NCBI RefSeq assembly: GCF_031882575.1
Contig: NZ_CP134772.1
Span: forward strand, 6,421,001 to 6,485,000
Source: Pseudomonas sp. VD-NE ins
Lineage (GTDB): Bacteria; Pseudomonadota; Gammaproteobacteria; Pseudomonadales; Pseudomonadaceae
Reading direction: 5' to 3'
Length of the DNA stretch: 64,000 bases
Shown: positions 33,283 through 34,516 of the stretch, piece by piece
How positions within the stretch are numbered: the first letter of the stretch is position 1
Layout of the letters: every line of letters begins with the position of its first letter
Translations under genes and position numbers: made by a program
The notes under the pieces: model-generated
Seen by the model: only the letters and a program-made list of their open reading frames with translations
Databases searched by the model: none
What the model was told of the DNA's origin: nothing

Positions 33283-33424
33283 GCGCACAGCCTCAAAAGG
33301 GAAATGAACGGCCGGGGCAGTGTAGGGGATTCGCACAATAACGCCACTATCTGCCACTGTTGGAAGAGGATGCGGTCCAATCCCCGCACGATGACCACCA
33401 AGTCACGATTCAACGTTCCCCCCT

Positions 33425-33477
33425 GATCGTTCCCCCGCTCCGCGTGGGAATGCATCCCGAAACGCTCCGCGTCTCAC
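33425..33477. repeat. Double-hairpin palindromic repeat, class D (copy 2)
   Basis: Same layout and orientation as the copy at 32841-32891, with a few changes in each arm (TCCCCC in the first, AAACGC/GCGTCT in the second). Confidence 0.8.
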
Positions 33478-33510
33478 CACTCACCTTTCCTACACCTGTT
33501 GAAACACATC

Positions 33511-33546
33511 CCTGTAGGAGCCGGCGAAGCCTGCGATCTTTTGATC
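33511..33546 (+). repeat. Single class A REP, diverged
   Basis: Matches the class A core except GGAGCCGGCGAAGCCTGCG, with no partner arm within 200 nt. Confidence 0.7.
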
Positions 33547-33639
33547 TTCCGGCCCGCGAATCTATGGGAAATTTCCTGCAAAGTGCGGTGCTGTCCATGA
33601 ACTAGGCGAGTTGGTGCGGTGGGGATAGGCTCTGTGGGT

Positions 33640-33867
33640 CGCCGCAAAATCGGTGACTCGGACGTGCAAGTCCGGTTCAGGTGCACAATCGTTAGTGGCG
33701 TTTCGCCGAGCGTTTTCCTATGCTCCCGATCGTTATGGCGGCTGTGCGTCGGAGACCTTCGGGTCTGCCGGGTTCCTGAACCGGTCTTGCACACCAACGC
33801 ACAGCTGCCACCTATTCGAAGTGCAAAGCGAATTGGTGTCGGCCTCATAACTTCAGGAAGCTGCACC
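33640..33867 (+). ncRNA. Structured 5' leader of the DUF6124-type gene (candidate regulatory RNA)
   Basis: Several pairings can be drawn. A 13-bp helix joins 33737-33749 (GGCGGCTGTGCGT) to 33797-33809 (ACGCACAGCTGCC) with one G-U pair. It encloses AGACC-TTCG-GGTCT (33753-33766), which has a cUUCGg tetraloop, and GGTTC-CT-GAACC (33771-33782). Upstream are CGGAC/GTCCG (33659-33674) and GGCG-TTT-CGCC (33697-33707); downstream is ATTCG/CGAAT (33814-33833). Two competing long-range pairings exist: CCGGTTCAGG (33672-33681) with 33775-33784, exact over 10 bp, and 33664-33675 with 33781-33792, 11 of 12. The limits of the transcript are unknown. I recall similar leaders before related genes in other Pseudomonas genomes, but cannot verify this. 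Confidence 0.55.
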
Positions 33868-34239
33868 ATGATCAAACCAACACCCAATCCCCCCGAAAAC
33901 CCAGACGTTTCGCCCTACGAAACCCTGGAATCAAAGAAATTCCACGAAGCCGCCGAGCGCGCCCTCGACCACCATTTCAAACCAGCCGTCGAACCGCATC
34001 CCAAACGTGAGAACGGCCTCTTCAAACTCTCCCCCGGCACCGACGCCGAAGCCCTCATGGCCAACGCCTCCGAAGACCTCCTGTCCATCAGCGTCATCGC
34101 CTGCGACCTCGCCGACGACCTCCACGGCTCACGCCGCTCGGTGGCACTGGCCCTGAGCAGAATGGCGGACGGCGTGCGACTGATGGTGGAAGGGACGCTC
34201 GACCAGATTGAAGTGCGAAGCGTGGCGGCCAAGCCGTAG
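33868..34239 (+). CDS. DUF6124 (DUF3077-like) family protein
   Basis: 123 aa cytoplasmic protein. It begins MIKPTPNPPENPDVSPYETLESKKFHEAAERALDHHF; the C-terminal half is helical and reads ANASEDLLSISVIACDLADDL...SRRSVALALSRMADGVRLMVEG. ATG 33868 is chosen because AGGAAG (33855-33860) lies 7 nt before it. The frame stays open upstream to 33619, but that part is the structured leader. The family is multi-copy in pseudomonads and of unknown function (from memory). A terminator follows. Confidence 0.8.
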   Translation: MIKPTPNPPENPDVSPYETLESKKFHEAAERALDHHFKPAVEPHPKRENGLFKLSPGTDAEALMANASEDLLSISVIACDLADDLHGSRRSVALALSRMADGVRLMVEGTLDQIEVRSVAAKP

Positions 34240-34254
34240 CGAGATTTGTGGATG

Positions 34255-34281
34255 AAAAAAGGGGACATTAAGTCCCCTTTC
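34255..34281 (+). terminator. Rho-independent terminator after the DUF6124-type gene
   Basis: A6 then GGGGAC-ATTAA-GTCCCC and a T run. Confidence 0.88.
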
Positions 34282-34308
34282 TGCAACTACCTGTAAAAAC
34301 CCAGACAC

Positions 34309-34338
34309 AAAAAAGCTGCCAATCACGGCAGCTTTTTT
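34309..34338. terminator. Bidirectional terminator
   Basis: AAAAAAGCTGCC-AATCAC-GGCAGCTTTTTT. It serves the small minus-strand gene whose stop is 16 nt away, and backs up the plus-strand terminator before it. Confidence 0.88.
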
Positions 34339-34354
34339 GAGAATCCGAAAACCT

Positions 34355-34516
34355 TCAACCAGCCAGTCGACCGACTGGCTCAAAATCAGAACCTTTGGCC
34401 AACGCAACATCCAGAAAGCGGCTGCGCTTACCAGAGCGCTTGGCCAAAACTTCACGAGCTTCAGCCTGGAACCGGGCAGCCATCATCGGCTTTGGTTCAT
34501 GTTTGGACTTTTTCAT
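34355..34516 (-). CDS. Small basic hypothetical protein
   Basis: 53 aa, MKKSKHEPKPMMAARFQAEA with the C-terminal part EVLAKRSGKRSRFLDVALAKG. The strong terminator placed directly after its stop and a Pseudomonas-like codon pattern support it as a gene; the ribosome site (GCAGGGTCTCT) is weak. Function unknown; the basic, helix-rich composition would allow nucleic-acid binding. Confidence 0.5.
   Translation of the reverse strand: MKKSKHEPKPMMAARFQAEAREVLAKRSGKRSRFLDVALAKGSDFEPVGRLAG

Follow-up and report, generated by a model that had tools for sequence, protein, structure and literature searches.

A C4 antisense RNA in the leader of a chromosomal DUF6124 gene of Pseudomonas sp. VD-NE ins, one of many related copies

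What kind of RNA precedes the DUF6124 gene of Pseudomonas sp. VD-NE ins, and what could it do there? The leader at positions 33640-33867 of the window (the whole stretch of 64,000 nt analyzed here, to which all window coordinates refer) had been regarded in a preliminary description as an undescribed structured RNA. Comparison with Rfam corrected this: the C4 antisense RNA family RF01695 matches at 33731-33815 on the plus strand, over model positions 1-87 and with 69 bits against a cut-off of 45, and is the sole match above threshold in a scan of the full window. A sensitive scan of 33500-34300 further revealed a full-length match to the c4-a1b1 element RF03163 at 33625-33678 (41.1 bits, E 7.1e-9), which lies below the cut-off of 46.7, and a weak match to isrK (RF01394) at 33638-33717 (23.2 bits, E 0.01, under the cut-off of 50). 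Judged by these models, what had been noticed as a structured leader contains C4 antisense RNA, with a putative a1/b1 element 5' of it. C4 is a gene-silencing antisense RNA first known from phage P1 and also found in P7, and the window displays the order a1/b1, C4, a2/b2, and start codon, with DUF6124 in the place of P1 icd.

The helices reported earlier are present. A 13-bp helix (33737-33749 with 33797-33809; GGCGGCTGTGCGT/ACGCACAGCTGCC) encloses two hairpins, one with a UUCG loop at 33753-33766 and a second at 33767-33785. The leader 33640-33867 folds with -94.2 kcal/mol compared to -77.45 +/- 4.49 for shuffled sequences (z -3.73; 0/200 as good). Our alignment comprised 27 full-length orthologs (25 distinct) out of the 30 best loci from a search matching 209 of 249 Pseudomonas genomes; L088, L090, and L093, which have no C4, were left out. 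In this alignment, 99.0% of the cells of the C4 stems were paired, none of 500 shuffles reached the stem measures, and sliding one strand by 1-3 columns lowered pairing to 31-40%; a fifth measure, which counts further pair types, was no better for the stems than for shuffles (166/500). The 13-bp helix and the other C4 stems are kept by compensatory changes, with both sides changed in 6 of 25 stem pairs (20 cells), located in helices 1 and 2 and none in helix 3. The possibility had also been raised that this region is translated. Since 25 of the 27 orthologs have an in-frame stop within the 83 codons 5' of the gene, the leader can be ruled out as a conserved coding extension.

At the 5' end, a -10-like TAGGCT (33626-33631, plus strand as all features below) suggests a putative transcription start at about 33638. 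A simple scan for a sigma-70 consensus promoter found none in 33560-34360; a GATA..CT block is conserved in the ortholog alignment, and TANNNT lies 6 or 7 bases 5' of the a1/b1 hairpin in about half of the copies in the own genome, as counted by eye, the scripted pattern being loose and picking up unrelated sites too. REP-like palindromic repeats were seen by eye 5' of the putative promoter (33420-33560). The c4-a1b1 element (33625-33678) includes a hairpin at 33638-33657 and is followed into its 3' part by a1 (GTGCAA, 33664-33669), complementary to a' and comparable to the annotated a1 of P1, and by b1 (GGTTCAGG, 33674-33681), complementary to 33775-33782. When 20 of the 42 own-genome loci were tested, all had a1b1 directly 5' of C4 (E<=0.05; 9/20 above cut-off). 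Between b1 and C4, a hairpin GAGC...GCTC is predicted at 33708-33725; one is predicted at this position in the 42 own-genome copies, a count made without a shuffle control, and its tail has at least three T in 47 of 122 loci including the window locus, likewise without control. As an intrinsic terminator, the hairpin at 33708-33725 is unconvincing, its tail CCGATCGTTA having no T run.

C4 itself (33731-33815), defined by RF01695 and stem covariation, has an expected mature form of 33737-33812, which would be 76 nt long compared to 77 in P1. Its ends carry putative RNase P signals, namely U-1/GG on the 5' and GCC-ACC on the 3' side; by eye, U-1 precedes GG in 40 of the 42 own-genome copies, and the stem is followed by ACC in 37 and TCC in 5 of them. 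The loop of the P3 hairpin (stem 33767-33771/33781-33785) holds b' (TTCCTGAA, 33773-33780), the exact complement of b2 (TTCAGGAA, 33852-33859), so that all 8 bases form Watson-Crick pairs with a stretch containing the Shine-Dalgarno AGGA. Next to the loop, a' (TTGCAC, 33787-33792) is complementary to both a1 and a2 (GTGCAA, 33821-33826), the latter comparable to a2 of P1 right after C4. The end of b2 lies 8 nt 5' of the ATG at 33868, which stands 56 nt after C4 and opens the proposed target, the DUF6124 gene (33868-34239, 123 aa; PF19619, 75.1 bits, cut-off 27). Two terminator-like hairpins 3' of the gene (34260-34279 and 34311-34336) were noticed by eye; a simple scan of 33560-34360 called no terminator, at these two hairpins or elsewhere.

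Very probably, in our view, the leader represents a C4 antisense module of the chromosome, in which freed C4 blocks translation of its own gene by means of a copy-specific code. One transcript would start at about 33638 and run through a1/b1, C4, and the DUF6124 gene, and a cut by RNase P, expected from the signals between U33736 and G33737, would free C4. Acting in trans, free C4 could then pair with the leader twice, a' with a2 and b' with b2; with C4 over the Shine-Dalgarno, DUF6124 would stay untranslated, a repression for which phage P1 is the model. The a1/b1 stretch would represent a second copy of the target, which in the uncut precursor may pair with a'/b' and hide C4, and which as a separate RNA could serve as a sponge. 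To judge by the fit of the sequences, the copy-specific b'/b2/b1 code would make each module mainly silence its own gene.

The preliminary description had recognized a switch in two long-range pairings, 33672-33681 with 33775-33784 and 33664-33675 with 33781-33792. Read from the sequence, both are real, they are contained in the minimum-energy fold of 33640-33867, and they essentially correspond to b1:b' (the 10-bp pairing) and a1:a' (11/12). To call them mutually exclusive was fair as well, the long-range fold of 33638-33885 (-100.6 kcal/mol) and the forced C4 shape (-98.2) being nearly equal. The leader might accordingly be pictured as a cis-acting switch or attenuator that alternates between the a1b1:a'b' and C4 structures and frees no small RNA, for which the difference of 2.4 kcal/mol between the folds would be suitable and a parallel exists in the isrK-orf45-anrP mRNA of Gifsy-1, reported with inactive and active structures (PMC4825925). 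We regard this as highly improbable, however, in view of the conserved RNase P-type ends, the C4 processing reported for P1/P7 and apparent in Acinetobacter baumannii (PMC5320573), and the fit of b' to b1 as well as b2, which a molecule reaching both should show. Of the cis-regulatory RNA proposed earlier, the structured leader stands; the self-contained switch is better replaced by an antisense RNA within the leader that would be cut out as in P1, and the supposed switch partners are the a1/b1 target copies.

The orthologs of the window locus bear directly on this pairing. Among the 27, 14 distinct loops were found, whose match to their own b2 reached 6.64 compared to 4.09 for b2 of other species (own strictly best in 6, best or tied in 11; 0/20000 permutations), and to their own b1 5.86 compared to 4.05 (strictly best in 4, best or tied in 8; 0/20000). 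The pairing of b' with b2 is shown by this co-variation, in which b1 takes part. Between the members of 13 disjoint ortholog pairs, chosen by fourfold-site similarity, which favors pairs with a gene more alike than the leader, we counted differences at 69/121 loop, 53/101 b2, and 54/105 b1 sites, compared to 109/707 fourfold sites, 70/572 sites in the leader spacer, and 54/676 in the C4 stems. The share of differing sites amounts to 51-57% for b', b2, and b1 and to 15% for silent sites, with complementarity kept, the loops differing at 0 or 1 site in 3 and at >=3 sites in 10 of the 13 pairs, two of which share only 43% and 51% protein identity, suggesting a shifted frame in one member. The a' columns 33786-33794 showed 0/117 differences. 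As neither the spacer nor the stems of this leader show such an increase, the contrast is local to the code, and the b'/b2/b1 sequence most likely constitutes a fast-changing code that diverges faster than silent sites at this locus.

The window locus is not alone in its chromosome. On the single contig of 6.70 Mb, we detected 42 C4 matches (41 above cut-off), 43 DUF6124 matches (42 above cut-off), and 5 DUF3077 matches; the first gene after C4 encodes DUF6124 in 33 of 42 cases, DUF3077 in 2, and Bro-N in 1, which bears out the earlier suggestion of a conserved structured leader common to a multi-copy gene family. Several PHROG antirepressor families match one of the 42 first genes, which is presumably that for Bro-N. 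Together with the best listed C4 from each of 80 other Pseudomonas genomes, these copies make up 122 loci, in which the start codon, sought 36-66 nt after C4, was found after 38-61 nt (mean 50.4) and is ATG in 121 and GTG in 1. Two further DUF6124 copies of the own genome (4238275-4238460 and 888338-888517) were seen by eye to have no upstream C4; with their start sites, the C4 loops of this genome match over at most 6 bases.

With so many copies in one cell, the question arises how far each loop is tuned to its own target. In the own genome, the longest Watson-Crick run between P3 loop and own start site averaged 7.2 bases compared to 3.9 for the 1722 cross pairs (0/20000 permutations), and the own start site was best or tied in 34 of 42 and uniquely best in 29; for 8 copies another copy's start site fits the loop better, and 13 own sites are not the unique best. 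Similar values were obtained for 76 distinct of the 80 loci from other Pseudomonas genomes (7.86 vs 4.52; 0/20000), with runs of <=5 in 13 loci and the own site best or tied in 48 and strictly best in 19, and for 20 loci outside Pseudomonas (7.55 vs 4.00; 0/20000), of which L058 and L060 have loops that do not fit the next start site (runs of 3 and 4 bases). Mean duplex energies, which also count conserved stem arms, pointed in the same direction: -16.5 for own and -11.8 for cross pairs of b' and start site and -13.9 vs -11.9 for a' and a2 (0/20000 each), and with the upstream stretch -22.3 vs -18.0 for a' (0/20000) and -21.9 vs -20.5 for b' (4/20000). The own partner ranked first by energy in 7/42 for b' with the start site, 5/42 for a' with a2, 8/42 for a' with upstream, and 4/42 for b' with upstream. 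Given that the own target comes first in just 7 (b') and 5 (a') of 42, cross-talk is possible and a' is not private. A preference for the own start site is evident from these comparisons; full insulation is not.

No two of the 42 own-genome copies have identical loops. In 25 paralogous pairs with >=80% protein identity, the genes are 88%, C4 outside the loop 83%, and the loops 57% identical, the loops of all pairs being 53% identical. Identical loops occur in none of the paralogous pairs compared to 2-22% of orthologous pairs, depending on the gene-identity bin; an extra avoidance of shared codes within the genome was not found, orthologous and paralogous loops having diverged to the same extent when the remainder of C4 was equally similar. 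Four clustered C4-DUF6124 modules (L029, L036, L008, and L009; own-genome positions 1820921-1827285) encode proteins that are 95-98% identical, and all of their loops are different.

Across the genus, C4 was present in 138 of 149 Pseudomonas genomes, the own included, at E<=0.001 (137 over cut-off), and among the matches listed, 33 genomes have at least 27 copies. C4 and DUF6124 counts among the listed matches correlate over the 149 genomes (Spearman 0.87); DUF6124 without C4 was observed in 0 of 118 genomes, and C4 without DUF6124 in 20 of the 149. Of 274 genomes sampled from the class, 18 including the own one have C4, the other 17 carrying 1 to 6 copies and 12 of them only one. The genes behind C4 vary: in the 80 other Pseudomonas loci, the first gene encodes DUF6124 in 19, DUF3077 in 11, and Bro-N in 8, and among 10 proteins scanned from loci outside Pseudomonas, AntA, Rha, and Bro-N were each found once and ORF6C once below cut-off, while 6 had no match. 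The first ORF is shorter than 80 aa in 41 of the 122 Pseudomonas loci, 37 of which continue with a second ORF, in 31 cases with a 4-base overlap (ATGA). For seven first or second genes, NCBIfam gave no match, and the one PADLOC match, a weak one (E 0.029), concerned the Bro-N protein. Within the first ~10 codons, 52 of the 81 first genes of >=80 aa carry a proline motif P[ND]PP, in the window at 33868-33897, which we take to be a possible ribosome-stalling site.

The DUF6124 protein revealed little about its role. Its AlphaFold2 model is a helical hairpin (helices 60-82 and 87-120; block pLDDT 95-98 for residues 61-110; pTM 0.52), for which a fold search of the PDB gave no match at E<=0.001, and a profile search of PDB sequences gave a single match at E 0.68. 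In the literature, of which few subscription papers were covered, we found no link of DUF6124 or DUF3077 to C4, and the mention found gives no function. A small protein present in many copies, with an antisense RNA over its start site, might be the toxin of a type I toxin-antitoxin system, in which C4 would be the antitoxin and differing codes would separate the copies; P1 Icd, whose gene occupies this place, reportedly acts on FtsZ (PMC11897509). DUF6124 and Icd gave no BLASTP alignment at E<=100, so that homology between them was rejected, and PADLOC has no match for the window protein. Moreover, in the 80 named DUF6124 loci (best of 252), a pattern search and reading by eye rather than a covariance scan found a C4-like pattern upstream of 68, while 11 retain the a1/b1 stretch and have lost C4 and one more, L227, is too short to tell. 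Since these 11 keep a1/b1 and the gene without C4, C4 is not indispensable. An open frame of 120 aa with a changed N-terminus is found in all eight of the loci without C4 that were inspected, perhaps partly from the same strains. These open frames weigh against strict DUF6124 toxicity, and on balance we find the toxin-antitoxin explanation unlikely. In 14 alleles without C4 (L201, L202, L203, L205, L207, L088, L090, and L093, which are the eight just mentioned, and L210, L215, L216, L222, L232, and L256), the a1/b1 stretch joins the DUF6124 start site directly.

Another explanation is a chromosomal immunity, by which host C4 would silence antirepressor genes of the same code in incoming phages, just as P1 and P7 are kept apart. 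Three Pseudomonas phage records contain a nearly full-length, window-like C4 that is followed after 54-57 nt by a short ORF, genes of phage type (Bro-N, AntA, Rha) stand behind C4 at other loci, and a fast change of the code suits an arms race. The loop of the own copy L001 fits the start site of the P. aeruginosa phage vB_Pae_U10 (L262) in 9/9 bases, so L001 might silence this phage. However, only this one of 42 own loops fits a phage start site over 9 bases and three more match 8 bases within phage leader or target stretches, counts that refer to three phages and have no chance control, and the first ORF of L001 itself resembles phage ORFs by eye. DUF6124 in turn is nearly absent from mobile elements, with 1 match in 50,697 phage records (at 55-405 of a 22,689-base record), 0 in 72,556 plasmids, and no confirmed match among viral contigs searched with a narrow pattern, by which a phage- or plasmid-borne DUF6124 was rejected. 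We regard such a chromosomal immunity as rather doubtful. Somewhat broader, and put forward here only tentatively as a possible synthesis, is the idea of domesticated phage-immunity modules throughout the genus, up to dozens per chromosome, which would mainly silence themselves and form a heteroimmunity or incompatibility set; their code would be under diversifying selection and outpace silent sites, DUF6124 and DUF3077 would be antirepressor-like effectors, and a1b1 or isrK would act as the releasing sponge.

Regarding known systems, the C4 and a1/b1 motifs are both listed in Weinberg et al. 2010 (PMC2864571). The RNA family is therefore a known one; its chromosomal multi-copy setting with DUF6124 appears new, and we found no description of it. 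A link to isrK emerged outside Pseudomonas, where isrK lies directly 5' of C4 on the same strand in 18 of 20 loci from 17 genomes (L044-L063; E<=0.01; 5 over cut-off), compared to 5 of 20 tested own-genome loci, none over cut-off, so that the two RNAs resemble halves of a single module. In a table on a Xylella genome, isrK is listed beside one of two C4 (PMC12189769). The isrK of the Salmonella prophage Gifsy-1 has been described as an sRNA/mRNA with alternative structures, which in trans raises anrP translation 139-fold and whose mutations at 159 and 162 strongly raise basal translation (PMC4825925); the main text of this paper does not contain the term "c4 rna". With isrK about 95 nt before C4, as in L062, positions 159 and 162 would fall in or beside a'; a similarity search from another C4 locus did not hit the Gifsy-1 locus. 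Were isrK to be the leader part of C4 loci, the mutants described for it might instead have affected C4 and a C4 sponge.

A regulator RNA of phage immunity is frequent in Pseudomonas chromosomes, attached to protein families with no assigned function. With 42 paralogous antisense/target pairs, each having its own short code, a single cell allows one to ask how many antisense specificities can coexist without cross-talk and what drives a code to outpace silent sites. Many C4 RNAs per chromosome were also reported for A. baumannii, with 21 C4-like "Group 1" sRNAs for which expression and apparent cleavage at the RNase P site are described (PMC5320573); in the portion of that report considered here, their targets are left open, whereas a matching start site adjoins most Pseudomonas copies. 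The closest comparison is the immI region of P1 and P7. The annotated P1 record shows a1, b1, c4 with 77 nt, a2 from the fourth base after c4, b2, and icd 51 nt after c4, and its a' and b' are complementary to the annotated sites over 7-8 bases. Both systems share the covariance model, the three stems, a2/b2 at the ribosome site, an upstream a1/b1 (in the window a putative one, below its cut-off), and similar spacings, b2 ending 10 nt before icd in P1 and 8 nt before the ATG in the window, with 51 and 56 nt from C4 to the start. The overlap of P1 icd and ant1 is resembled by the short first ORFs at other Pseudomonas C4 loci (the 31 with ATGA), whereas the window gene with its 123 aa is not of this short kind and DUF6124 has no similarity to Icd. 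In contrast to immI, the modules of the own genome are chromosomal, number 42, have DUF6124 instead of icd-ant as the proposed target, and carry a different b' loop in every copy.
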